Below are positions 3,216 to 37,000 of a DNA stretch of 64,000 nt, piece by piece. The notes beneath the pieces were generated by a model, which saw nothing but the letters and a program-made list of their open reading frames with translations, did not search any database and was not told the origin of the DNA. Origin of the DNA: a virus; the IMG/VR virus record IMGVR_UViG_3300027759_000087, positions 1-64,000 of that record; one strand, given 5' to 3'. A program made the translations under genes and the position numbers. Position 1 is the first letter of the stretch. Each line of letters starts with the position of its first letter.

Positions 3216-5585
3216 TTATCCTATAGTAAATCTATTATCAGCGGCTGATGCTAATTGATTATTTCCGCTCTGTGCAATTTGGTTTCCTTCTTGCAATAGT
3301 CCACCCATTCCTGCCACGCTAGTATTTAACTTTTCTAGTAGCCCTGCAAGCATATCTTGATTCGGTAAACCTGTTGGAACAGCCGCTTCTTGTGTTGCCG
3401 GCGCTGGGCCTGTTTCTGTCTGGGCGGCCTTAGTACCTAATTCCGATGAAAGACCAGCAGTCATACCTTTAAGGCCGCCAAATAAACCGTCTGTGCTTGG
3501 CATTGACATGTTAGACAGCGGTTTAAACATATCTGTCATTCCGGAAGTAAGTGGTTTAAACATGTCCGGGCCAAACTTACCAGCAACTCCTTCTAGAGTT
3601 TTACTAACATCGGGCATCTTAATATCACCCATCATCTTAGTAATATCTGGCATTTTACTAAAATCAGGCATCTTAATATCACCCATCATCTTAGTAATAT
3701 CTGGCATTTTACTAAAATCAGGCATCTTAATATCGCCAGTTTTGTTAATTCCAGTTTCACCAGGCATTCCGTCAATTAATTTACCAACAACTGTATCTAG
3801 TTGATTTTGCATTCCGCCTGCGGCATCTTTTGGAGCTGTTGATTCTTTCTTTTTGCTAGAAGCACCGGACATTTTTGATTGTAGTGCTTCACCAATAGCA
3901 GTCCATTGCTTTTTATTAGAAACTACTTCTTCCCCGTCTAATTGCACCATCTCCCCATTAGGATCAAATTTTTCTAGGGCTTCCATCCAACCTTTAGGTA
4001 CACCTTGTGTTTCTTGTTTTACATTTCCAAGTAAATCATCTAAACCTGGACTACCTCCTAAACGTACACGAGGCGTTGGTTTTTCTACCGGTGTTCTAAC
4101 TTCTGTTGGAGTTGCTTCTTGTCCTGTTTTTGCGGCTTTGGCGCCTGGCATCATTAATACTGCTTTACTAAAGTTGTCTACTGCACCTGAAAATTTCTCA
4201 TAGCCTGCGGCCTGCAGTTTGTTAAAATTATTTCTAGCGGCAATATCAGCAGCCACAATATTTTGAAATGCTTCAGTTCCTGGTGCTTTTGCTCCGTCTG
4301 GTGTTCGACCTGAAGCATTTGCAGCCATTTGGCTTGCTTGAAAGTCTCTAACTGTTTGTACTGAGCCTGCTGTAGTAGGGCCTCGTTGTCCTAATTGCTG
4401 TGCGCCTGTTGATTGCAACTGTAAACGTGACAGTTCTTGTCCTGCAATTCTACGCATTGATTGGCCAACCGCATCATCAGTGTATTTTTGAGACTGTGCT
4501 TGCGCGGCAAATCCGCCTGGACCTTGCTGACGCATGTAAGCATCCATATTATTTTTAGCCAGTTGAAGTCGTTGTTCTCCTTCTTTTCTCTGTTCTTCTG
4601 TTTTAGCGTTTCTTAATGCTAATGCGGCTTCACCTAATGCAGTACCTGCAGGCCCAATAGCACTTAAATTATTGCCGGCTTTTTCAGTCACTACACCCAT
4701 GGCAAATATTTCGTCAATAGAACCTTGAAGTTCACTTCCTAAATCCCCGGTGACATTTTTTAATGCTCTATACGAGTCATTCAGTTCTTTGCCGCCGGAC
4801 AACAATGCCAAATTCACATCCAAGTCTTCTGATCGAACTGCATTTTCTCTCATCAGCTGGTCTGTAGTTTTATTGGTAACGGCAGCATTGTTTAACATTG
4901 CCATTGAAAATTCACCAACACTCTTAATAGCTTCTTTTCTTGATTTCTCATCTTGCAATCCAAGATTTTGACTTCTTATAAGAGCATTAGTAGCTATCTC
5001 ATTGATCTGTTCAGGAACCATTCCCATACTTTCAAACATCTTGCCAGGTTTAGACTCTCTAAAATCTTTCTGGAATGCTAAAAGCTCTTTGGCTGCATCT
5101 ACGTTATTAGATGCTAAACCAGTCATTGATCCCTGTACTTTTGCTAACTGCGTCTGGAAGTGTTGGACATTTCCTCCGCTTTCAGCTAGTTTCTTACCCC
5201 AGTCGGCAGTTTGACCTGCAGATAACATACCAGACCCAATCATCGCCTTTTGCATGTCTACGGTGCCCATGAAACTATTTTTCATGGCATCAAAACCAGA
5301 CTGGACTCCTAGTACATTACCAGTCATCTTGCCTAATCCTGCGCTAACCCCTTCTAGTACTGATCCAACTGCACTACCACCTTTTCCGGCACGTTCAAAT
5401 CCTTTCACTACACTGTCAACAGCCCCGTTAACATCTTTGGCATTTGCTCCGGTTATGCTGGCGCCGCCACTACCCCCCGGACTGCTGCCGCCAGGAGTGT
5501 TCCGTAGAGCGGAGGCAAATGTACTTGCTTGACCAGTAAGCAAATCTTTCATTTGATCGTAGGTAATTGGGTTGGCACCTGACAT
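3216..5585 (-). CDS. Probable tail tape-measure protein
   Basis: 789 residues, rich in Gly, Ala, Met and Gln, with long predicted helices (about residues 120-480) and no enzymatic motif. Size, composition and a position next to the frameshifted gp26-like gene (which starts 64 bp away, divergently) and beside the portal favour a tape-measure role equivalent to T4 gp29, setting tail length and being ejected or threaded through the tube. At the usual 1.5 angstrom per residue rule the length would predict a tail near 118 nm (inference). Residues about 615-660 contain tandem 18-residue repeats. The C-terminal 100 residues are again helical. Alternative: an internal virion protein. Sequence identity to gp29 is not evident by eye. 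Confidence 0.55.
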   Translation of the reverse strand: MSGANPITYDQMKDLLTGQASTFASALRNTPGGSSPGGSGGASITGANAKDVNGAVDSVVKGFERAGKGGSAVGSVLEGVSAGLGKMTGNVLGVQSGFDAMKNSFMGTVDMQKAMIGSGMLSAGQTADWGKKLAESGGNVQHFQTQLAKVQGSMTGLASNNVDAAKELLAFQKDFRESKPGKMFESMGMVPEQINEIATNALIRSQNLGLQDEKSRKEAIKSVGEFSMAMLNNAAVTNKTTDQLMRENAVRSEDLDVNLALLSGGKELNDSYRALKNVTGDLGSELQGSIDEIFAMGVVTEKAGNNLSAIGPAGTALGEAALALRNAKTEEQRKEGEQRLQLAKNNMDAYMRQQGPGGFAAQAQSQKYTDDAVGQSMRRIAGQELSRLQLQSTGAQQLGQRGPTTAGSVQTVRDFQASQMAANASGRTPDGAKAPGTEAFQNIVAADIAARNNFNKLQAAGYEKFSGAVDNFSKAVLMMPGAKAAKTGQEATPTEVRTPVEKPTPRVRLGGSPGLDDLLGNVKQETQGVPKGWMEALEKFDPNGEMVQLDGEEVVSNKKQWTAIGEALQSKMSGASSKKKESTAPKDAAGGMQNQLDTVVGKLIDGMPGETGINKTGDIKMPDFSKMPDITKMMGDIKMPDFSKMPDITKMMGDIKMPDVSKTLEGVAGKFGPDMFKPLTSGMTDMFKPLSNMSMPSTDGLFGGLKGMTAGLSSELGTKAAQTETGPAPATQEAAVPTGLPNQDMLAGLLEKLNTSVAGMGGLLQEGNQIAQSGNNQLASAADNRFTIG
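3613..3736 (-). repeat. 54-bp tandem repeat inside the tape-measure-like gene
   Basis: Two nearly identical 54-bp units (3613-3666 and 3667-3720) followed by a 16-bp partial third. Each encodes 18 residues with the pattern GDIKMPDFSKMPDITKMM. The period is a multiple of three, so copy-number change would lengthen or shorten the protein in frame. The first two copies are identical at the nucleotide level over most of their length, which suggests recent duplication. Confidence 0.9.
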
Positions 5586-5610: not shown

Positions 5611-5618
5611 TATAAATA
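5611..5618 (+). promoter_or_regulatory. Late promoter for the gp26-like gene
   Basis: TATAAATA, identical to the T4 late promoter consensus, 30 nt upstream of the ATG at 5649. It is preceded by TACGTA. The gene has a good ribosome site (GGAG, 8-9 nt before ATG). Since gp55 is encoded here, late-promoter use is expected. Confidence 0.75.
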
Positions 5619-5637: not shown

Positions 5638-5648
5638 CGGAGTTTAAA

Positions 5649-6476
5649 ATGGCCCAAAATCCACTACAGCAATTCTTTCGTCAACCAAAAATTTATATTA
5701 AGTTTCCTTCTGAGGGTGCTTATACTAAACCAGGTGTACTACAAGGTAATACATCAAATGCACCCGTGTACGGCATGACTGGCATGGACGAAATTTTAAT
5801 TAAAACACCCGATGCGTTAATCAGTGGTGAAAGCACAGTTAAGGTTATAGAAAGCTGTTGCCCTATTGTTAAAAACGCATGGGAAATAAACAATCTTGAT
5901 GTTGAAGTATTGCTAACTGCAATTCGTATTGCAACCTACGGTGATGTTATTACAATTACACATGTATGCAATCATTGTAAAGAAGAAAGCGATTACGAAT
6001 TAGGACTATCTAAACTAATTGAACATTTTGGTGATATCAAATACGACAATCAAGTTGTATTAAAAGATGTAGTAGTTAGATTGCAACCGTTAACGTATCG
6101 TCAAGTTACAGACTACGGGCTTAAGAATTTTCAATTACAACAAAAGTTAAAACAAATTGCGACGGTTGAAGACGATGAAGATCGACAAAAACAAATATCA
6201 GCAATATATGTTGAATTTGCTCTATTGCAAAATGAAATTTATAGTGCTAGTATTGAAGCAGTTGAAGCAAATGGACAAGTAGTTAGCGAAAAAGCATTTA
6301 TTAACGAATGGTTAGTTAATACAGATAAAGTTTCTATCGACAAAGTCCGTGCTAAAGTCGATGAAAACAGAGATCGGTGGAAAAATCCACCGCAGACGGT
6401 TACTTGTCCTGAATGTAGTGGAGAAAACACAATATCTATTGAATTGGACCATTCAGATTTTTTCGCCAACGCCTAA
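5649..6476 (+). CDS. 26: gp26-like baseplate hub / tail assembly protein, zero-frame product
   Basis: 275 residues of the T4 gp26 (T4 baseplate hub) family. The N-terminal region (residues 10-70) carries the typical K-I-Y-I-K-F-P-S-x-G opening and the EILIKTPDALISG segment. Two CxxC pairs (C107/C110 and C253/C256) could bind one zinc ion. In T4 gp26 and its neighbour gp51 are needed for hub assembly. The last zero-frame codons GAT TTT TTC contain a slippery heptamer, and the stop at 6474 lies inside a stem-loop; see the separate frameshift entry. The gene is transcribed from a perfect late promoter and diverges from the probable tape-measure gene, the place where tail assembly chaperones normally occur. 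Confidence 0.85.
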   Translation: MAQNPLQQFFRQPKIYIKFPSEGAYTKPGVLQGNTSNAPVYGMTGMDEILIKTPDALISGESTVKVIESCCPIVKNAWEINNLDVEVLLTAIRIATYGDVITITHVCNHCKEESDYELGLSKLIEHFGDIKYDNQVVLKDVVVRLQPLTYRQVTDYGLKNFQLQQKLKQIATVEDDEDRQKQISAIYVEFALLQNEIYSASIEAVEANGQVVSEKAFINEWLVNTDKVSIDKVRAKVDENRDRWKNPPQTVTCPECSGENTISIELDHSDFFANA

Positions 6477-6518
6477 TTAGGTTATCGGTTGAAGATACGA
6501 TAGAGTACTTGATTAGGC
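6458..6518 (+). promoter_or_regulatory. Programmed -1 ribosomal frameshift signal (slippery site plus stem-loop)
   Basis: Slippery heptamer T TTT TTC at 6458-6464, in the correct phase relative to the gp26-like frame. After a 6-nt spacer (6465-6470) a 12-bp stem pairs 6471-6482 with 6507-6518 (ten Watson-Crick pairs and two G-U). Inside its loop a second 5-bp stem pairs 6483-6487 (TATCG) with 6498-6502 (CGATA), leaving a 4-nt bulge. The zero-frame stop at 6474-6476 is within the stem. Slippery sequence, spacer length and stem stability all match known -1 frameshift elements. Confidence 0.88.
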
Positions 6519-6697
6519 TTGACAAGCAGGTTAAACAATTCAAAGAAGAGCTGTTTAGAGTAAGTTGGTATATGAGGGGTGGTGTATCTGCTGTCGATCT
6601 CATGTACTTGTGGAGTTACGAAGATCGACAGTTGATGTATGCAACTATTGAAAGCAATATAGAGCTTGCTAAATCAACTGGCAAGCCGTTTATCTAA
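6464..6697 (+). CDS. -1 frame extension of the gp26-like protein (gp51-like / GT-type domain)
   Basis: 77 codons in the -1 frame, open continuously from the slippery site to TAA at 6695. It has no ATG; the only candidate initiator is TTG at 6509, without a Shine-Dalgarno, and starting there would discard 15 open codons. Reading through the shift gives a 349-residue fusion ending in a helical domain (KQVKQFKEELFRVSWYMRGG then DLMYLWSYEDRQLMYATIE). This mirrors lambda G/GT and many other phages, where a frameshift in the chaperone gene beside the tape measure adds a tape-measure-binding T domain. In T4 the equivalent position holds a separate gene (51). The role is inferred from context and architecture. 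Confidence 0.82.
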   Translation, partial: RQRLIRLSVEDTIEYLIRLDKQVKQFKEELFRVSWYMRGGVSAVDLMYLWSYEDRQLMYATIESNIELAKSTGKPFI

Positions 6698-21500: not shown

Positions 21501-22054
21501 CATACAAGCCATTGCCTCCAAGCAGTGATGAACTAAACAATACATTTGCTCCAAAATTAAATTTAATTAAAACTATCAGTGATGAAATCATCTATCATCC
21601 TGTAAAGTATAAAGTTTTATTTGGTGCTAAAGCTGAAAAGAATTTACAAGCACAATTTAAAGTAGTTGTTAATAAAACAGTAGTAGTGTCTGATAACGAT
21701 ATAAAAACACAAATTTTATCTGCAATTAATAATTTCTTTGCGTTAGGTAATTGGGACTTTGGAGATACTTTTTATTTTACAGAGATGGCAAGTTATGTCA
21801 CATCTCAAGTAAGTCCCGCAATTGTTAACTTTGTTATAGTTCCAACCGCCAGCTCATTATCATTTGGTGGATTGTTTGAAATTACAGCGGGCCCTGATGA
21901 AATTTTTATTAGCGGAGCAACCATCATCAATATTGATATAGTAACATCTATGACTTCTTCAACTATTAATAGTTTAGGAACTATCACTTTAACATCAAAT
22001 GCTATTGCAGTGCAAGCATTAACAAGCTCAGCTTACGGATCATCTAATGTCTGA
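18572..22054 (+). CDS. 6: Baseplate wedge protein gp6
   Basis: 1160 residues (T4 gp6 is 660). The N-terminal 130 residues (DFENIRRSMIDYLRQNFPED, YIESSEYLALIDLIAYLAQS, AFRVDLNARENFLELADRRD, SVLRLARMLSYNAKR) are strongly conserved in gp6, which forms the inner ring of the baseplate. AEDYNISPL (about 435) and the C-terminal LFGAKAEKNLQAQFKV to NNFFALGNWDFGDTFYFTEM segment (about 1015-1085) are also typical. The extra length lies in the beta-rich middle (residues 130-430 and 540-900). The stop overlaps the giant gene start by 8 nt. Confidence 0.94.
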   Translation: MSATDRQNRLLVAKDWTKVYQSFRNADFQSYDFENIRRSMIDYLRQNFPEDFNDYIESSEYLALIDLIAYLAQSIAFRVDLNARENFLELADRRDSVLRLARMLSYNAKRNQASKGVLKFTSVQTTQNVLDSNGRNLSNQIVGWNDSSNNNWYDQFISVLNAAFPANQQFGNPSDSATIYNVPTEQYKFNSSNTAVPVYGFTKTVNGSRMEFEVTSTTFSGQDYIYEETPKLGNPMACIYKNDGQGSASNNTGFFFYFTQGTLNNGAFTISQPTASESIDLDSTNINDTDVWLYKIDQQGIESELWTPVPNLTGNNIIYNSLNKSIKNIYKVITRAGDRISLSFSDGTFGTTPLGTFSVYYRTSNGLSYTINPQDVRGVSLTIPYISSLGQAEELTITLGLQSSVDNSSATESNDTVKDNAPATYYTQNRMITAEDYNISPLSVSQEIAKIKAVNRSASGISRYLDLIDPTGKYSKTNLFADDGVLYQEIYTVNTTFTYASRTDIQGIIINKIFDILAEPDLRNFYYSKFTNISTTLLDISWYNVTNDLSFSSGYLGSTIDKKPYLLSAYTNTALRYVSVGSLVKFEAPLDADGSEQVFDRSNGNALIKKTAIAKSNTSDYIWAEIVTLAGDGTAAGTGVLSDGSGTVSLNDTIPTGAIATRVVPVWKTIIGSTVITTMTDLIANNTPFGLRYDINTQSWQLIFQSNLDSSGPFSLGKQGDISNLQLDASWLLLFVTDTITYTVSTRKLRYIFESAAQLRFYFDNDERVYDNVSGTLLTDSINVLSVNTQPGLAIPFTFDQKFKITNQFIGLDGYVDTKKIVLTFSDKDNTGIVQDPDTFNNIVVPATTFSLSANYIVLEKYTVEAGQDDYRYVTNNDSKMIVLQTQPTNFAQYNNGQYFYFIDVDTVAVYNSATSELTPSLDYKVFLGRDNLKFQYTHNASDTHRIDPGISNIMDVYVLTNSYDLLFRQWLNDVITYKPLPPSSDELNNTFAPKLNLIKTISDEIIYHPVKYKVLFGAKAEKNLQAQFKVVVNKTVVVSDNDIKTQILSAINNFFALGNWDFGDTFYFTEMASYVTSQVSPAIVNFVIVPTASSLSFGGLFEITAGPDEIFISGATIINIDIVTSMTSSTINSLGTITLTSNAIAVQALTSSAYGSSNV

Positions 22055-25000
22055 TAATAAAAACCCAACAGGTTCAAATAATTACTCAATGGTAGATTTG
22101 CTACCAAATTACTATCGCACCGATGCTAATAATAAATTTATCCAAGCAACTGTCGATCAGCTGTCACAAAAAGGCACTGCTAAAAAAATTACTGGCTATA
22201 TTGGCCGTCAAAATGCAAAATCGGCTAATGGGTCTGATGTGTATATTACATCCCCAACTAGTATTCGTCAAACTTATCAGTTAGAGCCGTCTGTAGTTAT
22301 TAACGACAGCACAGGAAATACTACCTTCTTTAAAGATTATCAGGATTATATTAATCAATTAAAAGTATTTGGAAGTAATGTTGCTAATCACGAAAATATT
22401 AATCGCCAGGAATTTTATTCTTGGGATCCCCACATTGAATGGGATAAATTTGTCAACTTTCAAAACTATTACTGGCTTCCTTACGGCCCAGATTTAATTA
22501 CTATTACCGGTCAGAAATTAAATGTTACTAGTACATATACTGTATCTATATCGCAATCTGCTACGTTGCAGAAAGAATATTTGTTTACTCCAAACGGCTT
22601 AGATCGTAATCCTTCTTTAACACTATATCGCGGCCAAACTTATTATTTTGAAATTGATAGTCCTGGGGAACCGTTTAGTATTAAAACTGCTCGTACTCCA
22701 GGCACCTCAGACAGATATACTGATGGAAATTATGTAGATAAGTTTGCAGTTGAATCAGGAATACTTAAATTTACAGTTCCAATTGCTGGCCCAGATAATT
22801 TATATTACATAAGTGAACGCAATGCTGACTTAGGCGGCCTAATTAAATTTTTAGATATTACTGAAAATAGTTATATTAATGTTGAAACAGAGTTGTTAGG
22901 CAAAAAAACATATTCACTTTCTGACGGCACGCCTTTAAGTAACGGAATGAAAGTTGCGTTTAGCGGTAACGTAATTCCTGCACAATATAGTAAGGGAGAA
23001 TATTATGTAGAAGGCGTTGGCACTGCAATTGCATTAGTACCAACTACAGTTCTTGAAATTGTCAGTACATATACTCAAGATAAAGCAGTTAATTTTGATT
23101 CAACACTGTTTGATCAATACCCGTTTGCGGCCGCAACTTCATTTGCTGGAATACCAGATTATATTACTATTAATAAAACTAGCAAGGATCAAAATCCGTG
23201 GAGTAGGTACAATCGTTGGTTTCATACGGATGTTATTACTGCCAGTGCTAAATTTAATAATAAACTAGCAGACTTTGATCAAGCTAGTCGAGCAGTCCGT
23301 CCAATTATTGAATTTGAAGCAAATTTAAAATTATTTAATTTTGGTACAGTTGCAATTGCCGACGTTGATTTAGTCGATGATTACACTACGGATGTGTTTA
23401 GTATCATTGAAGGTTCAGCTGGATATAGCGTTGACGGTATCCAATTAACACAAGGTATGCGTATTGCGTTTATAGCAGATCCAGATATCACTGTAAAGAA
23501 TAAAATTTTTAAAGTTTCTTTTATCAACATTGCAAATTCAGGCATTGGTGTTCCGCAAATACGATTAATATTAGATGAAACACCTACTACTAATTCAAAT
23601 ATGTTAGTAAGACAAGGTGTTAAGTATCAGGGTTATAGTTTTTGGTTCAACGGCTCAAGTTGGATATACGGGCAACAAAAAACAATTGTTAATCAAGCAC
23701 CGTTGTTTGATTTGTTTGACAAGTCGGGGTTAAGTTTTGCTGATTATAGCGGCTCAACGTTTAAAGGTACACAACTGTTTTCTTACAAAGTTGGAAATAC
23801 AATTGCCGATACTGTTTTAGGATTTAGTTTAAGTTATCAAAATATTAATAATATTGGAGATATACTATTTTCTTTTAATTTATTAACTGATTTGTTTAAT
23901 TACAAAGAAAACGAAATTTTAACTACAAAACTTGTTAACACAGGGTTCTTATCTAAGTTAACTTTTGTTAATTCTAGTGTATATGTTAATGGATGGCAAA
24001 CTAGTCTTGTAACCCGTTACCAACCAGCTATTAGAATTTATAAAAATTCTGGACTAACCAACAATTTTGCATTGGATATCTATGATAATAAAACAGATTT
24101 ATTAGATTTAGAAATCCGATTATATGTCAACGGCCGCCGACTTAATAAAGCAGAATGGAAATTATTAGATGCAGTAAATTATAAAAAAATTATATTATCT
24201 AAAGATATTTCTAAAACTGATGTATTGACAATTAAAGCGTTTGCTAAACAGCCAATTAATAATAACGGCTATTATGAAATTCCAATTAATCTACAAAATA
24301 ATCCGTTAAACAACGATATAGGTAACTTTACCTTAGGCGAAGTAACTGACCATGTAAATTCTATTATTGATAATATTCAAGACAGGTATGTAGAAACATC
24401 ACCGGGTGTAAACAATTTAAGCGATTTAGGAAATATTACTCCTTACGGTACAAAATTTGTACAGCATAGCGGCCCTGCAAGTTTAGCACTTTATCATATT
24501 ACAAGTGAACAGAATAATGTTATTCGAGCTTTAGAAAAATCTCGAGACGATTACGGCAAATTTAAACGTAGTTTTTTACTTGCGGCTAAAAATCTAAAAA
24601 CTGATACTGATGTTGTTAGCCAGGTTAATACAATACTTAAAACTTTATCTGCAAATAAAACACAAAAATCGTCGTATTATTTTAGCGATATGGTACCGTT
24701 CACAGGAAAAAAAGTGACGGAATATCTAGTTGTCGATACTAGTAATAAACTATATCCGTTATCAACAACGTTTGATAATACCATTATTTCAAACAAAGCA
24801 GTAAGTGTATACTTTAATGGAACTCAATTATTATACGGCATTAATTATTTTTTTACAGCAGACGGTTATGTAGAACTTAACAATACGGTATCAGTAGTCA
24901 ACGGTGACAAAGTTGTAATCTTTGAATACGACAGTACGGATGGTTGTTTTATTCCTCCAACTCCTACTAAATTAGGCTTGTGGCCAAAATTTACTCCAAA

Positions 25001-28000
25001 GATATATGTGGATAATAGCTATCTAACACCCCAAACTATGATACAAGGGCACGATGGAAGTCAGGTATTGGCATACGGTGACTATCGAGATGCTATTATT
25101 TTAGAATTAGAAAAAAGAATTTATAATAACATACAAACCAAATACGATCCTACAATATTTGATATCTATAATATTATTCCGGGTTACCACAGAACAAGTA
25201 ATTTTACATTAGATGAATTTAATAAATCTTTAGCCTCTGGATTTTATAAATGGGCTGGAATTACTGGAAGAGATTTTTCTAAACAAGTTGGGTTTAACAA
25301 AGCTAATACATTTACATTCAATTATAAAGGAAACACAGCCCCAGACGGAAGAAGCCTACCAGGCTATTGGAGAGGAGTTTATCGTTGGATGTATGACACC
25401 GATAAACCACATTTATTTCCGTGGGAAATGTTAGGTTTCAGTGAAGAACCAACTTGGTGGCAAGCAAAGTATGGCCCAGCACCTTATACTAGTAACAACC
25501 TTGTAATGTGGAAAGATTTAGCCGCAGGCGCAGTTAGCCAACCAGGCATGCCAGTTGTGTATCGACCACAATTTGTTAGACCAACATTATTAAATCATGT
25601 GCCGGTTGACGAAAGTGGAAATTTAATAAGCCCAGCACTTGCCAGATTGTCAAACGGAGTATTTAATGCCGATATTCAAAGTCATTATGTATTTGGAGAT
25701 GTTGCACCTGTTGAATCAGCATGGCGTAGAAGCAGTTACTTTCCTTTTAGTACACTGATAGCTTCTATGATTTTACAACCTGCACAAACTTTAGCAACAG
25801 GTTTAGATATATCTCGTACTGTAAGAAATTTATGTGGACAGTTGGTATACAAAGATACTAATTTAAGAATACGACCGCAAGATATTGCTTTGCCTAGTAT
25901 CTATTCTAGCACCTCTAGAGTTTATACTTCGGGTATTATCAATTATTTGATAGAATCTTTAATCTCAAACAATTATAACTATTACCAAGACTATCAATAT
26001 AATTTAACTAATCTAAATATAAATCTATCTTATAGAATTAGTGGGTTTTCAAGTAAAGAAAACTTTAATTTAATCCTTGATAGTAAAAATCCTGCGGCCA
26101 GTGGCAATGTTTTTGTGCCGCCTGAGAATTATAAACTTGTATACAACAGTTCAAGCCCTATTGGTAAATTATCCTATAGCGGCATTATTGTTTCCAAAGT
26201 TGATACTGGTTACGAAATCAAAGGCTATAGTTCTTCGGAATCATTTTTTAATTACTATTCTTATAGACAAGAACTTGGCCCACAAATTAATGTAGGCGGA
26301 ATCAGTTCAAGTTTTGTAACGTGGACTGCTGGCAAAACGTATGTGCTAGGACAAATTGTTTTATATAGTGGCAAATATTATCGAACACTATATGCTGTTA
26401 CACAAGATACGTTTAATATTAATGCATTTGCAATATTACCGTCACTGCCAATAGCAGGCGGAGTAACTGCAATTTTTAGACAAGCATGGGATACAACTAC
26501 AACTAATGTACTGCCTTATGGTTCTGTATTAGCAGACGTACAACAAGTAGTTGATTTTATATTAGGTTACGGCGCATATTTAAAAAATCAAGGTTTTGTA
26601 TTTGATGATTTTAATAATGCCTTATCTCAAGTTAGTAACTGGGAAACAACAGCTAAAGAATTTATGTTCTGGACCACACAAAAATGGTCTGCCGGACAAA
26701 ATCAATGGGAACAATGGATTCCTAATATTGCAATTGCCTATGGAGACATTGTAAAATATCAAGGAGAATTCTACAAAGCTATACAGAATGTTCCAGCACA
26801 ACAAGTATTCCTTGAAGAGTTTTATTTCAAGTTGGATGGATTAAGCACTGTAGGAAGTCCAGTTATTAGTTTAAGTCCTGCCGCTAATAAATTGACATTT
26901 GTTTCGCCATTGTCAGTCGCAGAAGATATTAATAATCCTTTTAATGATTATGAAATATTTCAAGTAGATGGTACTAGCTTATTACCAATGGATATTAATT
27001 CGTCTAGACAAGGAAACCTTGTGACGTTTTCTCCGGCTAATAACGGCACCATCTATAATGCTAGTTTTTATCTAGTGCAAAAAGAACAAGTTTTAATTTT
27101 AGATAATGCAACGGTGTTTAATGATATTATCTACCATCCAGAAAGCGGATACAGACAAGAGCGTATTAAAGTTTCTGGATTTGTAAGTAGCCAGTGGTTT
27201 GGTGGATTTGAAGTTCCTGGATTTATCTTTGATAGAGCAGATATTGCTCCGTGGAAATCGTGGACTGATTATTCAGCAGGCGATATAGTATACTATCAAG
27301 GTTATTACTATAGTGCCAATGCTTTCTTAGCAGGATTTTCAGAGTTTGATCCTAACAACTGGTCTCAAATTAAGAAACCAGTCCCAACACTATTGCCTAA
27401 TTGGTCATACAAAGCTGGACAATTTGAAGATTTTTACAATTTAACAGAAGATAATTTTGATGTTGGACAACAAAAAATTGCCCAACATTTAGTAGGTTAT
27501 CAAAAACGTCAATATTTAAACAATATTATTCAAGATGATATTAGTGAGTTTCAATTTTATCAAGGAATGATTCGAGAAAAGGGTACACAAAACAGTCTTA
27601 ATAAACTGTTTGATGTATTAAGTGCTGATAACAAAGAAAGCATAACATTCTTTGAAGAATGGGGCATTCGTGTAGGTCAGTACGGCGCAAGTCAGGCATA
27701 CGAAGCAATTGAATTTTTAGTAACGCAACCAGATATAACTAAAAATTCACAAGGGTTCTACTTAACGTTATTACCAGAACGTTCTACAAATTTTAATTTA
27801 AATATTCCTGCTAACAAGGTGTATCTAAAACCGCAAGGGTATGATGCCAATCCGTTCCCAGTTAATAACAAGCAGAAATTTTTCTTAAGATCTAGCGGAC
27901 ATGTACAAGCTAGTACTGATACAGTACAAATTAAATCAATATCTGATTTATCAACACAAGATATTACAAAATTTAAAGATGGTACATATATCTGGGTAGC

Positions 28001-31000
28001 ATTTGAAAAAACAAGTTGGAACATTTACAGATTTACATCTGTAAAATTAATGCCAGTTGATGCAGTTTATAACAATGATAAAACAATTACAATAAAAACG
28101 TCTAATTTTGTAGATCCTAGTATAGTTGGATATTATATTGGAATTCAGCAAGTATCGTTTGCAGGATTTTATAAAGTAGTTGCGGCTGAATTAACAACAC
28201 TAACAATTGATGCATCTAATTTTTCGTCAAACAGCGACTGGCCAACCGCAGATAACATTAAATCTAATTTACAAATTTTTAACCTATATCCGGTAAGAAC
28301 TAATTCAATTAACAATGCAAATAATATTATTAAGGCTTATACAGAATTAGGAGACAAAATTTGGGTCGACGATGACGGCACAGGTAAATGGGCAACCTTA
28401 AAACTAACCTCTGTATTTGCCCAATCAGAAATTAGAAAACCTTACACAGCTCCAGATACTGCCCATGGCCGTATAGTAACATTAAGTGCTAGCGGATTAA
28501 TTGCGGCAGTAGCAACACAATCGGGCGAAGTAATTATCTACGAAAAGCAAGGTAACCGATGGATATTTAGACAAATAATTAATCGTCCGTTTATGTCGCA
28601 ATATGAGTTTGGAGTAGATCCAAACCCAGCTATCACATTTGCCGAAACAATGGCAATGAGTTCAGACGGACAGTTTTTAGCAGTTGGCAGTCCCCAAGCA
28701 GGCAAACTGGCCACACGAGTATTACCTAATGGAAACATTGTCTGTGATAAATCTAGTTTAAACGCATCTACTACACTTACGGGCGCAGTTAGTTTATACC
28801 AAAAAGATGAATTTAATGAATTTATATTACTGTTTACTATTGCTAGTGGTGACAATATATCGGGACAACAATTTGGATCATCGTTAACATTTGGAACAAA
28901 TACGTTGTTTGTTGGTTCAAAAGGCAATACTAATTACGGAACACAAGCAACAGTCTTTGAATTAAGATATATTGTTGGAATTGATAGTAATACAACTACA
29001 ACTAATACAAACGCTGACGGCGAAACAGCCAATGCTATTGTAACAGTAACTTACGATGCTGGTAATGCGTTTTCAACTAGTAATAGTTCGGCAGATGTAT
29101 CATTTGATGGCGGCTCAGCTCTTACAATTGAAAGTACAGCCGACAGATGGGTAATTGTACGCCCAGGTATAAGTATAACCAACGGATCTAGCATTGGCTT
29201 TGGATTATCTTTATCCGTATCAGCAGATAATTCTGTACTGGCAATTGGCGCACCTCTCGGAGGCTCTGTATACATTTATAGATTAAACACTAACAATGTT
29301 TATAGATTATCGCAAACAATTAACGGTCCGACCCAAATAGTAACTGACGCAACTACTGTTGACGGAGTTGTATCATTTAACGCATTAACTTTAAGTGGCG
29401 GATATGGATTTAAAACAGCCGTTAACGAATTTACAAATACACTACTGACAAATTTAAATACTGCCGGCGGCACTGGAACTGGATTAATTGTAGATGGAAC
29501 GTTAGATTCAAACGGAGTAATTCAAAAAGTTAATATTAGAGAACCAGGAAAAAATTATCAAGTTGGTGATACTATCACAATAGTAAATCCTATTGGAAAC
29601 GGTTCTGTATTAAGTTTAGCATGGTCAACAAAAACATACAACGAAGGAATTCAATATAAGACCGGCGATACTGTGACATTAGGCGGTGTTAACTACGTTG
29701 CTATAGCCAATACACCAACTATTGTTGGATCGTTAACATTAATACCAAAAAATCCAGCAACAGAGGCATCATTTTGGTCTGTAATTTCTTTTGCTAATGC
29801 ACTAGTTGGAACTGACATCAGTGTAAGTACAACAACAGGTTCTGGATCAGGATTAAAAATTAAATTAGCAACTGCAACAACATCAGGAGCAGTAGCAGGT
29901 AATATTGTAATTCCAGTTACTACAACTGATAACTTTGCACCAGGGCAATCCGTATTTTCAGCAACCTCACCAACAGCATTTGCGGCCGGCACATACATTA
30001 CACAAATTAATAATGCATCATTTGTATCAACATTATCCGATAATGTTTTAACTGTCACTAGTATTACTGCTGGTAATAATAATGTTGTTGCAAAAATATT
30101 TGGATCTATAATTGGTACTACTCTTACCGCTGAAGAAATTGCCGGCGGCAGAATATTACCGGGAATGGTATTAACAGGAACAGGAGTTCCAGAAAATATT
30201 TTTATTATCAGCGGATCTGGCAATACATGGACTATTAATAATCCTGCTTCTGTTTCTAAAGTACAAATTACAGCAACATTGTACGAAACAATTACTCCAG
30301 GAATGCAACTAATAAATCCTGCGCTTGATACTCCTGCAACGTTTACAGGAGCAATCTCTACCAAAGGAACAGCAACTTTAACTGGCGCAGTTACTACTGT
30401 GATTGGTGGAGTATCATCTTTATATAATGCTACAATTAGCGGTACTACACTAAAATTTGATACTGTTACCGGCGGTGACCCTGTTGTTCCAGGAATGACA
30501 TTGACAGGGACAGGTGTTACTGCTGGAACAAAATTATTATATGGAAGCGGAACAACTTGGATAGTTAATACTAGTCAAACTGTTGCATCTCCGGTTACCA
30601 TCACAGCCACATTAACTACAGCATCAATTGACGGTTACAACTTAACATTTTCAAAATTTACCGGCGCATCTTTGCAACCCGGTGCAATATTAACCGGCGG
30701 CAGTGTGGTTGCCGGTACAAAAATAGTAGGCGGCTCTGGAACTTCGTGGACTGTTGATATTAATCAAACAGCAACTTGTACTACTGCTACCCTTCCTTAC
30801 GGATCGATTAATGGAAATACATTAACATTTACTGCTAAAACAGGCGCAGATATTGAAATTGGAATGGCAGTATCTGGGTTAACAACTGTGCCAGGCACAT
30901 TTATAACAGGCGGTTCAGGCACTACTTGGACTGTTAATATTAATCAATCAACTATTTGTAGCCAAGTTACATTGCAAGCGTTCTTAATTGATGCACAAAT

Positions 31001-34000
31001 TATCAACACCACACTAACTTTTACAAGTAGTACTGGAGCAGATTTAATAGCAGGAATGGTGTTAACTGGCACTAATGTGATATCAGGAACTTATGTTATT
31101 AGTGGCGCAGAGTCTGAGTGGATAGTAAGCACTTCACACGGCTCTAGCGTTGTTCCAACAACAATAACAGCAACACCAGTGTATCTTACTGTTAGCGGAA
31201 CAATTACTGGATCGGTGTTACTAGGCCAACAACTAGGCGGATCAGGAGTAGCTAGCGGCACAACTATAGTTGCCTCAGGTACAGGCATTGGCAAAGCTGG
31301 AACTTACTTGGTTACACCAATACAAACTATTGGAGCTAATCCGTTTACCAGTCGTTACATTTATACAAGACCTACAATCATTCCAGGTATTACATTATCC
31401 GGAGCAACTATATCTGGTACAACATTAACATTTTCTAATAATACTGGTGGCGCCATACATGCTGGAATGTTAGTAACAGGAAGCAATGTGTTGCCAGGAA
31501 CTGCTATTGTGTCTGGATCTTCAACTAGCTGGGTAGTGAGTATAAGTCAAACTGTTTCTGCTACTACTTTATTAGTTACTGGTACAGGAACTGGCGGCAC
31601 TGGCACATACATTATAGATCAAGTATTGCCTGTTGGTATAAATGTAACAAGAGGGATTAGTCTAGTTCTTAATACTGGTTTAGCAAATACATTGTCCGGC
31701 GCTGGAGAAGTTACAAGCCTAACAATTTCTAATTACGGTACAGGATATGCTATAAACGATCTAGTACAATTTAACATATCTGGTGCTTCTAATTTAATTA
31801 GAACGCAAATTGCAGAAATTACTAGCAACGCTACAATTACTGTCGCTTCGATAAGCGATGGCAGTATTACTAAAGATGCTTCACAATTTGCTTCTAGTAT
31901 AAAACTTAACACTACCGGAGAATACTTGGCAATTGGATCCCCACTATATTCTGGAATGACTGGGTTTGACGGCCAAGTATTAGTTTACAGTAATAACACA
32001 AGTACTCAGAATACTTACAGCCTTTTCCAAGAAATTACAAATCCACATTCTGCTTCTGGAGATTTATTTGGCAAAGCAGTTGACTTTTCAACTGACGACA
32101 AAACTTTACTAGTTTACAGTCCCGGAGCCGACTCATTTATATTAACTACATTCGATGCAGATAATTTACAAACTAGTTTTGATGCTAATTCTTTACAATT
32201 TAAAGAATTGACTTTAAATTCAGGCAAAATTGATGTATATACTCGTTATCTAACTAATTGGATTCTTGGAGAATCATTGTACAATGCAAATACAACTACA
32301 GACGGCTTTGGACAAAGTTTTGCAATTGCCAACGATACTATACTAGTAGGCGCTCCCCATGAATTTGATGTGTTAAATGATGAGCAAAATAGTATTCCTA
32401 TCAAACAACTTAACTCTGGTAAAGTGTATTCGTATGAGCGCAATGCTAATAGTTTAAACTGGAATCCTATACACGAGCAAGCAGATTTAATTGACTTAAC
32501 TAAAATTAAACAAGTATTCTTGTATAACAAATCTACTAGCAAACTTATAAAATATCTAGATGTAATAGATCCTAATTTTGGAAAAATTGCAGGATCTGCC
32601 GAACAAGAAATTAGCTATAAAACATTTTATGATCCTGCAATTTACACTGTAGGAAATAGTGCAGTTAATACTGATGCTGGTTCCGCATGGACAACATCAA
32701 ATGTGAGTAAATTGTGGTGGGATTTGCGAACTGCAAAATTTGTAGATAGTCATGCAACAGATATTGTTTACCGAAATAGTACACTAAACATGCTAGCTAC
32801 TGGCGCTAGCATTGACATTTACGAATGGGTTGAAACTAAATTGACTCCAACAGAGTGGAAATCACAAGCAGACACTTCAACCGGATTAACTAAAGGCATC
32901 AGCGGCCAACCGTTGTACACAGATGCATATAGCATTAAACAGCATTATAATACTTTTACAAAAGTATACGAAAACACTTATTATTTCTGGGTCAAAAATA
33001 AAGTACTAGTGCCTGAAGTAGAAAACAGATCAACATCTGCGTATTCAGTATCTAGATTAATTGGAAATCCTAGAGGAGAGAATTATTCTTATGCAAGTAT
33101 AACCGGAAAAAATTCTTTTAATCTAGTAAACTGTCAAAATTTGTTAGCAGGCGACGATGTTGTATTGGGTATTGAATATTGGGTAGTGGATAATACAACG
33201 CAAAATACACATGCACAGTGGAAATTAATTGATAATAATCCTAGTACTAATTTACCATCCGCTATTGAAAATAAATGGTTTGATAGTTTGTGCGGAAAGG
33301 ACCAAGCCGATAGACCAGTTCCAGATTTAGGATTACCTGCTAAATTACGATTTGGTATTGAAAGTCGTCCTCGACAAAGTATGTTTGTTAATAATTATGA
33401 AGCTTTAAAACAATTTGTAGAGCGTACTAATAGAATATTAATTAACAATCAAATTGTTGAACAAAAAAATATATCATTACTTGATAGTTACGATGTTGCT
33501 CCGTATGCATTTACTGGAGAATATGATACCATTGTTGATACAGACGCCGAGCTAAGAGTTATTGCAGTTTCTACAGCTAAGCCGGCATTTGTTTCTCCTA
33601 TAATTACTAATGGTTCAATTACTGGAATTACAATTATCTCTGCAGGTTCAGGCTACATTAATACTCCTGCAATATCTGTATTTGGAAAAGGATCTGGAGC
33701 AAAACTAAAAGCAATTATTGATATTGCAGGACGAATTGTTGGCGTAACTATTTTAGACAGCGGCAAAGGATATACTTCAACAACAACATTAACAGTAAGA
33801 CCGTTCTCCGCGCTAGTTAAATCAGACTCTGTAGCCCATGGCAAATGGAGCATCTACGCATATACGATTAATAATATTACTAATATTAAATCGTGGACAA
33901 GAATACGTACTCAATCTTACGATGTACGTACTTATTGGAACTATGTAGATTGGTATGCTACAGGCTTTAATCAATTTACTGTAGTTGATAATGCAATAGA

Positions 34001-37000
34001 TACATTTGCAGAAATAGGAACAATTACCCCAGTAGTTGGGCAAACTTTAAAGATTCGAGTTGCTGGATCTAAAGGTTGGCAATTGCTATTCTGCTATTCA
34101 TCTACAGTAACGTTAGACTGGACTCAACAATATAATGTTGTCGGTATTGAAAACGGAACTATACAGTTAAGTCAAACACTTTATAATTTTAGCAATAATA
34201 ATATTGGCTTTGATAGTTCAACATTTGACGGAATTGGATACGATAATACCGCCAGTAAAGAATTACGAATTATTCTTAATTGTTTAAAATCTGAAATTTT
34301 AACAGACACCTTAAAACAAGATTATCTAGATTTATTTTTTGCTAGTATTAGGTATGCACATTCTGAACAGACATACATTGATTGGGCATTTAAAACTAGT
34401 TTTGTAAAAGCTCAACATAATGTTGGCAGTCTAAAACAAACAGTTACATACACAAATGATAATCTTTCTAACTTTGAAGATTATATTAAAGAAGTTGTCC
34501 CTTACAGAACAACAGTACGAGAATATGTAAGTAACTATATATCTACTGATAGCAGTTCGTCTGTAATTACAGATTTTGATTTGCCAGCAATTTTTAATAA
34601 TTCTGGCAACACTGTTATTAAAACAGAAGTACAACAAGGTAAAGTAGTTTCAAATAATGAACTAATACAATCTTATCCATGGAAACATTGGTTAGAAAAT
34701 TTAGGATTTCAGTTAACTTCTATAGTTATTACATCATCAGGTTTGGGATATGTGTCAGAACCTAAAGTAAAAATTATTAGCGATAGTGGCACCGGAGCAG
34801 TGGCCCGTGCCTATGTTGCTAATGGTAAAGTAACTAGAGTTGATTTATTAAATTCTGGAAGCGGTTACCTTACTGCACCTACTATCGTTATTGACGGCGG
34901 CTCAAGTGCCACAGGAACAACAGCTAAAGCAATTGCTATTATTGGCAAATCTTTAGTTAGGTCTAGTCTTATTAAGATGAAATTTGATAGAATTAATAGC
35001 AAATATTATATAATTCAATTAAATGAAGAACAGACATTTCCAGGCGGCCCAAATAATTATCAACTAAGATGGGCTCCAGATATTAAAATTAATGCTAGTA
35101 CTGTAAAAGTAAACGGCATTACAGTCTTGCGCGACACTTATGTATTATCAGTAGTTAAATCAACTAGCAAAGGTTATACAACATATTCAGGCTTGCTTAA
35201 ATTTGCATCGGGCCTAGCCCCCGCAGTTGGCACAGTAGTTACTATTAACTACTTAAAAGATATTGATTTATTAAACGCAACGGATCGTATCCAATATTTT
35301 TATGATCCAGTAAGCGGACAATTAGGCAAAGATTTAAATCAGTTAATGACTGGAGTTGACTATGGCGGCGTCATAGTAACTGGCACAGATTATAATACTG
35401 CAAGCGGCTGGCAAAGTGTTGGCTTCATGCAAGATTTGTGGGATTCATACGAAAATACATACAACGATTATATTGTAAGCATTAACGCTACTTCTGCCGC
35501 ACTGCGCACTTTTGAATTACCGTACATGCCAGCAGTATTTGAAAATATTAATATATATTATCAATCTACAGTTAAGAATGTGTATACATCAAACGGTTCT
35601 AGCTTAATATACACATTTGATTTAAATTATAATTATATTAATTCAATTAACGTGACTATTGATAAAGCTGTAGCGGGCATTTCTAAAACTGTTACAGATA
35701 CTTCAACAGAAACAACTAGTGTTATTCAAACACTTAATGGTTTCAATACATTAACAGTTGCGAGTGTTGCTAATCTTTCAGTAGGTAAATCAATTAAATT
35801 TTTATCTGGAACAGCAAACACTGGACTTATTGCAAATCAAACATATTATGTAAAAACAATTATTCCTGTTTCAAATTCATTTACAGTGTCGGATAGTCTT
35901 GGCGGCCCAGTAGTTACAGTTAATAATATGCCTACTGCCGCAAATCCAGTGTTGAATATGGTAATGCAATATGGCACATCTACAAACTACTTAACATCTA
36001 CTACTTCTGGCCTGTATGCTGGAATGGCATTCCAATTTAGCGGTAATGCGTTGTTAGGCGGAGTGATTACCAATAAAACATATTACGTTAGTCAAATAGT
36101 TGATGCTACTCATTTTACTATAAGCGCAACTTCTGGCGGCCCTGTATTAGCATTGACATCTGCAATAGGCACAATGACATTGCGACAAGTAGCGGCTTCA
36201 CCTGAATCTACGCTGTTATTAACCAACATACTAGGATTAAAAGTTGGCGATGTAGCAACAACAACAGTTGATGGTGCAATTGCAGACGGTACTCGTATTG
36301 TTAAAATTAATTCTAACTCTGTATTATTATCTAATATATTGTACGGAGACATACTAGCCAATACACCTATTACTTTTGTTAGAACATTAACTGCGCCTGT
36401 TAATTTTAGATATATTACTAATAATTCATTGCAGTTGGCAGAAGCACCGGTTGCAGGAAGTATACTTACAATTTCTGGTGCAGAGGCTCCTGTTAGAATT
36501 GATGATCCAAATTTTAATAAGCAATGGATTATTACGGCTACTGAAGCAACAACAAATATTATAACAACTGTAACTCCTATTACATTTGAAATTGGTGATT
36601 CGATTTCATTTACTGGAACAACTATTGGCAACATTAATCCTAATACTCCCTATTATGTACAGGATATAATAGACAATAGACATTTTAAAATAACTGCAAC
36701 TACAGGAGTGCCTGGCCCAAATCCAAACGGAGTAGAGTTTAAATTAAAATCAGCAACAGGTTCTTTTGTGGCAAAAAGCACAGGCAACGCTACCGCAGTT
36801 ATGTCTACTTATATTGCAGACGGTTTACAACCTATTATTACAATTCCAAATACGTATCCTTTAACAGTTGGTGATTTAATAATTTTCCGTAAGAGCACAA
36901 GCGACGGATCGGTAGCAGTTAATTCAAACGATTTAGATACTGTGCTAGATGGCGGCACTTTAGTTTATAATACCGCTACTGGAATAGCGCCAGATGATAT

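Follow-up and report, generated by a model that had tools for sequence, protein, structure and literature searches.

Atkins et al. (2016, PMC5009743) describe the G-T frameshift behind the lambda proteins gpG and gpGT as a feature with wide conservation in long-tailed phages, T4 being the exception. As outlined in PMC3004832, gp51 of T4 is needed for assembly and absent from the particle, and gp26 is listed as a hub assembly chaperone; the same account notes genetic studies supporting the presence of gp26 in the hub, which would count against this protein being simply a chaperone. According to the PRFect paper, some T4-like phages have one short and one longer gene instead of frameshifting, a statement for which it cites Vladimirov, Gautam and Davidson (2022). 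A 2025 paper on the Pakpunavirus phage Adele, citing the same study, refers to poly-T frameshift signals as known in T4-like tail-assembly chaperone (TAC) genes, and describes for the TAC of Adele and the Andersonviridae a conserved poly-T −1 frameshift, the downstream ORF of which had earlier been annotated as a separate gene (PMC12846349). These belong to other phage families and carry the motif GTTTTT, and they are compared with the present locus by description only. Frameshifted and T4-like tail chaperones are therefore already known, and their identification in T4-like phages appears to have been published in 2022. That study, judging by its title and two citing papers, is said to have identified T4-like tail assembly chaperone genes, apparently of the same gene family as the one treated here, and its title stresses a mechanism other than frameshifting. 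In one open-access library we found no paper on tail-chaperone frameshifting in jumbo phages or on frameshifting in the RaK2 hub, although one may still be in print.

Here we describe a gp26-type gene in a stretch of 64,000 nucleotides of virus DNA (hereafter the window), which covers positions 1 to 64,000 of the IMG/VR record IMGVR_UViG_3300027759_000087, a record of 64,900 bases. With a probability of about 0.85, this gene yields two tail-assembly chaperones by programmed −1 ribosomal frameshifting, a short form that ends at the zero-frame stop codon and a long form that carries a C-terminal extension read in the −1 frame. The pair is likened to lambda gpG/gpGT by analogy; the window gene and the probable tape-measure gene point away from each other instead of lying in line, and the short form, unlike gpG/gpGT, belongs to the gp26 type and has two conserved pairs of cysteines. 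Possibly new are how far the arrangement reaches among jumbo phages, a covarying RNA stem, and the interpretation of small annotated 'gp51' genes as the tails of frameshift products.

The gp26 gene and its neighborhood

The gene runs on the plus strand from an ATG at 5649 to a TAA stop codon at 6474–6476 (5649–6476) and encodes the short form, a putative gp26-type tail-assembly chaperone of 275 amino acids. This protein scores 46.9 bits against PF12322, the gp26 family, with a curated cut-off of 24.5, and is thus a member of that family; it also matches phrog_150 (E 4.3e-15). One PF12322-type match was obtained in the 64,900-base record, which may be a fragment. Another IMG/VR contig, of 108,991 bases, encodes a gp26 protein identical to that of the window over its full length and has the same heptamer at the slip site. 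Upstream of the start codon are a Shine-Dalgarno-like GGAG (5639–5642, plus strand) and, at 5611–5618 of the same strand, TATAAATA, which resembles a T4 late promoter.

The preliminary description placed the gene beside the probable tape-measure gene. The adjacency is real, as a divergent gene for a protein of 789 amino acids occupies 3216–5585 on the minus strand, and the identity of this neighbor as a tape measure is probable by position only. The portal gene (PF07230) lies on the same side of gp26, and the slot between portal and gp26 is that of a large virion protein in 121Q, RaK2 and GAP32. The 789-residue protein had no family match in PHROGs or Pfam, and blastp detected no significant similarity to the RaK2 and Phosso proteins of the same slot. 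The large genes that follow the extension in relatives were also compared: those of D484, Y68 and Melnitz have weak tape-measure matches (in Y68 and Melnitz a small gene sits between the extension and this large gene), those of PX29 and Ps15 have no tape-measure match, and that of S-BM1 falls in a family named endolysin. Elsewhere in the window, among the tail genes, 22047–39908 is an ORF of 5953 amino acids; a scan covering its first 2800 residues detected a carbohydrate-binding module of family 5/12.

The slippery site and the −1 reading frame

The heptamer T TTT TTC is in phase with the gene start and occupies 6458–6464 on the plus strand, beginning 16 bases before the gp26 stop codon; a spacer of 6 nt (6465–6470) separates it from the RNA stem considered below. 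The −1 extension (6464–6697, plus strand) consists of 77 codons, the last of which ends at 6694, and a stop codon at 6695–6697, and would form the C-terminal domain of a predicted long form of 272 + 77 = 349 amino acids. Phase, spacer and length of the open frame had all been given correctly in the preliminary description. Its statement that the −1 frame lacks an ATG and a ribosome site holds for the beginning of the frame, near which there is no start; farther on ATGs do occur, the first being codon 37 (6572–6574).

The bare 7-mer is not rare, since TTTTTTC occurs at five places on the plus strand and 14 on the minus strand of the 64,900-base record (the reversed pattern at 11 and 4, respectively); what is rare is the place and phase of the gp26 heptamer. 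Among the 56 window ORFs of at least 100 amino acids, three have an X XXY YYZ in frame within their final 60 nt and also a −1 frame that stays open for 90 nt or more beyond the stop; T TTT TTC is found at such a position only in gp26.

Four scans of IMG/VR with proteins of the window's group, one of them limited to the best 80 of 140 relatives, gave 102 loci; four contigs are present twice, so that these represent 98 distinct contigs, one of which is identical to the window in gp26. Conservation of the slippery site, which the preliminary description had proposed as a check, is complete in this set: TTTTTTC stands in phase in 102 of 102 loci. The extension is 75–77 amino acids long in 100 of them, the exceptions being one locus cut by the contig end (L139) and one with a divergent end and 81 amino acids in all (L181). 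Other in-frame heptamers served as a control, and within the first 750 nt of the group's genes none of 108 opens a −1 frame of 40 amino acids or more. One locus (L172) carries a second heptamer besides TTTTTTC. In another (L016, which resembles L015) gp26 is interrupted by a stop codon following codon 193, ahead of an intact slip site; we regard this as either a broken copy or an error of sequencing.

The −1 frame is under selection at the protein level. Over 62 unique loci, 59% of single-base codon differences are synonymous in this frame, compared with 20% and 12% in the other two, and its variability peaks at third codon positions.

The RNA stem

On the plus strand of the window, positions 6471–6482, which include the zero-frame stop codon, pair with 6507–6518 to form a stem of 12 bp, two of them G-U. 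This stem covaries in the window's group. In a gapless alignment of 62 sequences (61 distinct), the 12 pairs are formed in 92.1% of cells, compared with a mean of 86.6% in shuffled alignments, none of 500 shuffles being as high, and two-sided changes are found in 41 cells, compared with 15.5 in the shuffles, figures that are not probabilities because the sequences are related. When one arm was slid by 1 to 3 bases, pairing was at most 54.2%. The final two pairs do not form in 23 and 22, respectively, of the 61 sequences, and therefore about 10 of the 12 are conserved across the group; the 12-bp stem of the preliminary description is thus complete in the window and somewhat shorter as a shared element. 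RNAalifold, given the group's alignment, found nine of these pairs unaided. The inner 5-bp stem that had also been described is present in the window's own predicted fold and absent from the consensus fold of its group.

The arginine encoded within the stem, at the 3′ arm, is AGG in 57 of the 59 sequences that have arginine at that position, and elsewhere in the extension AGG accounts for 20 of 318 arginine codons, 62 of which are codon 1, constrained to CGN by the heptamer. L022 and L218, distant members of the group, are left out of the stem count on account of their differing sequence; in both, folding gives a stem of very dissimilar sequence about as far downstream of the heptamer. A stem conserved in all lineages was considered and rejected: for cyanophage loci the RNAalifold consensus is empty (75 unique sequences) and the best fixed 5-bp stem does no better than shuffles (74 sequences), and in the RaK2 group no consistent stem was found.

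Distribution of the slip site

A tblastn search with the window gp26 matched 64 phage records, 16 of which were read at base level: Atu_ph07, Phosso, 121Q, RaK2, GAP32, PA5oct, XacN1, RAS14, Vibrio 2.275.O, XaC1, Munch, CBB, XbC2, BF, Hallingskeid and PAC2, the last being near-identical to PA5oct at this locus. The heptamer is present in every one of these, as TTTTTTC in 14 and TTTTTTT in 2, and is followed by a −1 extension of 69–80 amino acids. Nine further records were S-BM1, SCTP-2, LR756511 (an uncultured 595-kb phage), Ps15, PX29, Vibrio D484, Rhizobium RHph_Y68, Melnitz and Vibrio K474. All of these but K474 have a heptamer, which is TTTTTTG in Y68 and TTTTTTT in Melnitz, and an extension of 56–76 amino acids; LR756511 stands apart in the distance from heptamer start to stop, which at 70 nt exceeds that of the rest, and in having a second, overlapping heptamer. 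Counting T4 and EC-F2, 27 named records were examined base by base, and 24 of them combine heptamer and extension; the exceptions are K474, T4 and EC-F2, and in the latter two no heptamer opens such a −1 frame. PHROGs treats −1 extensions as families of their own, phrog_18291 and phrog_634, the former, which has no description, being matched by 10 of the 24 extensions.

A scan with S-BM1 gp26 found at least 597 relatives, the best 80 of which were analyzed. All 80 of these cyanophage-type loci have TTTTTTC followed by one codon and then the stop, and in 79 the extension is 42–68 amino acids long; the remaining one (L069) is ended by the contig end about 40 nt after the stop. In the same 80 loci, heptamers lying at least 120 nt before the stop open a frame of 30 amino acids or more in 0 of 55 cases.

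Relation to T4 gp26 and gp51

The preliminary description noted that T4 has separate genes 26 and 51, and suggested that their products are the T4-family equivalents of G and GT. The first point is borne out: in place of the one frameshifted gene of the window, T4 has two separate and divergent genes, the in-frame heptamers of which open at most 19 codons of −1 frame. The second is supported and can be sharpened by profile comparison, in which a two-sequence alignment of gp51 from T4 and EC-F2 was set against a 16-sequence alignment of cyanophage-type and related long forms (S-BM1, PX29, D484, Ps15, Y68, Melnitz and ten IMG/VR loci); the hhalign E-values given here are those of single comparisons. 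Residues 6–247 of gp51 align with the 16-sequence long form straight across the frameshift junction (E 7.2e-16), and residues 11–207 of gp26 align with it and end at the junction (E 2.7e-21). The window-type long form aligns with the same 16 sequences over 275 columns (E 1.6e-21) and only weakly with gp51 directly (E 3.9e-4, probability 36%), so that homology between the window's long form and gp51 across the junction is established by way of the cyanophage-type intermediate. The window extension by itself has no significant similarity to T4 gp51 or to the cyanophage extension, and no match in PHROGs or Pfam.

Family assignments point in the same direction. PHROGs places both T4 gp26 and gp51 in phrog_150, and residues 147–246 of gp51 match phrog_634, 'baseplate hub assembly catalyst' (E 1.2e-23), which also holds the −1 extensions of S-BM1 (E 1.8e-30), PX29, D484 and Y68; the Ps15 extension has no match to this family. 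Judged by these alignments, gp51 is a complete long form, consisting of a gp26-like domain and an extension domain, and not just a C-terminal piece. Since gp51 aligns with the long form and gp26 with the short form, gp26 and gp51 look like G/GT-like short and long tail-assembly chaperones that T4 makes from two genes.

Near its end T4 gene 26 reads GAG TTC TTT GAG TTA CTA TAA, with two phenylalanine codons where relatives have the slippery site, and these may be its remnant. We lean, with some reserve, towards the following history: in the T4 superfamily, jumbo phages included, the −1 frameshift in gp26 would be the ancestral way to short and long chaperones, and T4 and its near relatives would be derived by a duplication in which the gp51 copy kept the long form and the gp26 copy lost the slip site, GAG TTC TTT GAG being what is left of it. 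The small 'gp51 / baseplate hub assembly catalyst' genes of cyanophages and others would then be frameshift tails and not independent genes. On the present data T4 becomes an understandable exception to the G-T frameshift rule, and gp26 and gp51, hub assembly chaperones of unclear action, gain a concrete and testable role.

Predicted structures

An AlphaFold2 model of the short form has a mean pLDDT of 87.7, and that of the extension is all-helical with a mean pLDDT of 87.9. Compared with phage proteins by Foldseek, the short form has 60 matches at E 0.001 or better; among the matches listed (50 of the 60), several are annotated as baseplate hub or hub assembly proteins, and the fold extends to other phage groups such as Campylobacter CP220, Bacillus SP-15 and Ralstonia RSF1. 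Against solved structures in the PDB, Foldseek gave no match for the short form at E 0.001 or better. In a VIA comparison of the short form with 674 chains the matches are mostly short and helical, the best having Z 7.7 over 60 residues (rmsd 3.0); 5ir0_B (Z 5.3, rmsd 4.5, 93 residues) was considered as a fold match and set aside as chance level. A sequence search of solved structures with the short form, the extension and T4 gp51 yielded nothing credible, and the extension model has no match among viral models at E 0.001.

Proposed mechanism and alternative explanations

An outline of the proposed process is as follows. Most ribosomes would terminate at 6474 and release the gp26-like short form of 275 amino acids. 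A minority would pause on T TTT TTC at the stem starting 6 nt downstream, where both tRNAs would slip back by one base, and the reading of 77 further codons would give the long form of 349 amino acids. On the model of lambda G/GT, coating of the tape-measure protein would fall to the short form and recruitment of tail-tube subunits to the helical C-terminal domain of its longer counterpart, and neither form would stay in the virion. T4 and the Pseudotevenvirus EC-F2 would make the same two products from separate genes, gp26 as the short form and gp51 as the long one. We infer both the occurrence of the shift and the chaperone function from sequence and analogy: a −1 frameshift best explains the conserved heptamer, its phase, the extension and, in the window's group, the covarying stem, taken together with the occurrence of the long form as an ordinary gene in T4, and a chaperone pair acting on the tape measure is suggested by the lambda analogy (PMC5009743) and by gp51 being, in the account cited above, required yet absent from the particle (PMC3004832).

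Could the extension instead be a separate small protein, made from its own start codon or by termination and reinitiation at the gp26 stop? It is annotated in this way, with a small separate ORF at the extension, in records such as 121Q, GAP32, Ps15, PX29, K474, D484, Y68 and Melnitz; in RaK2, PA5oct and PAC2, on the other side, no ORF is annotated for it on that strand. Loss of start signals in the second frame had been proposed as a check, and in the window's group the conserved −1 extension indeed stands without start signals of its own: a start codon with a Shine-Dalgarno-like motif in its first 20 codons is found in only 1 of 62 loci, and 52 of them have codon 37 as their first ATG. In T4 gp51, moreover, the same domain is fused to a gp26-like domain. 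We therefore set aside an independent gene for the window's group, where it is improbable, and keep it in consideration for a few relatives. Ps15, D484 and Y68 have an ATG overlapping the gp26 stop despite the heptamer, which makes reinitiation possible there, and in Vibrio phage K474 the extension may come from reinitiation, since no X XXY YYZ heptamer is present, TAATGATG overlaps the gp26 stop (L130:2200–2235) and the −1 frame is open for 65 codons. Across the records read here, what is annotated as a small separate gene, or goes without annotation, more probably represents the end of a frameshifted protein.

Slippage of RNA polymerase on the T run, which would add a U to some mRNAs and so lead to the same long protein, is slightly less probable still. 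In its favor, the core of the heptamer is a run of six Ts, extended to seven in Melnitz, XacN1 and RAS14. A run of six bases is short for efficient polymerase slippage. A signal acting on the polymerase also fits poorly with a heptamer kept in phase as T TTT TTC, TTG or TTT, and with a covarying RNA stem 6 nt downstream in the window's group. A sequencing error or a decayed gene would account for one broken frame and is refuted by conservation, the same site recurring in 102 + 80 metagenome loci and 24 named records with coding selection acting on the −1 frame.

A comparison with P1 PmgB

P1 PmgB, which has weak profile similarity to gp26 and a Pfam score below the cut-off, is encoded just upstream of the tape-measure gene and has been proposed, as PMC9024508 puts it, as the chaperone of that protein. 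Near the end of pmgB (L041:44425–44574, minus strand) a +1/−2 frame, unlike the −1 frame of the window, stays open, with no slippery site established, and reads like a chaperone extension. In this candidate extension, 37 residues are 73% identical in Cronobacter phage JK004, the sole divergent match among 21 records.
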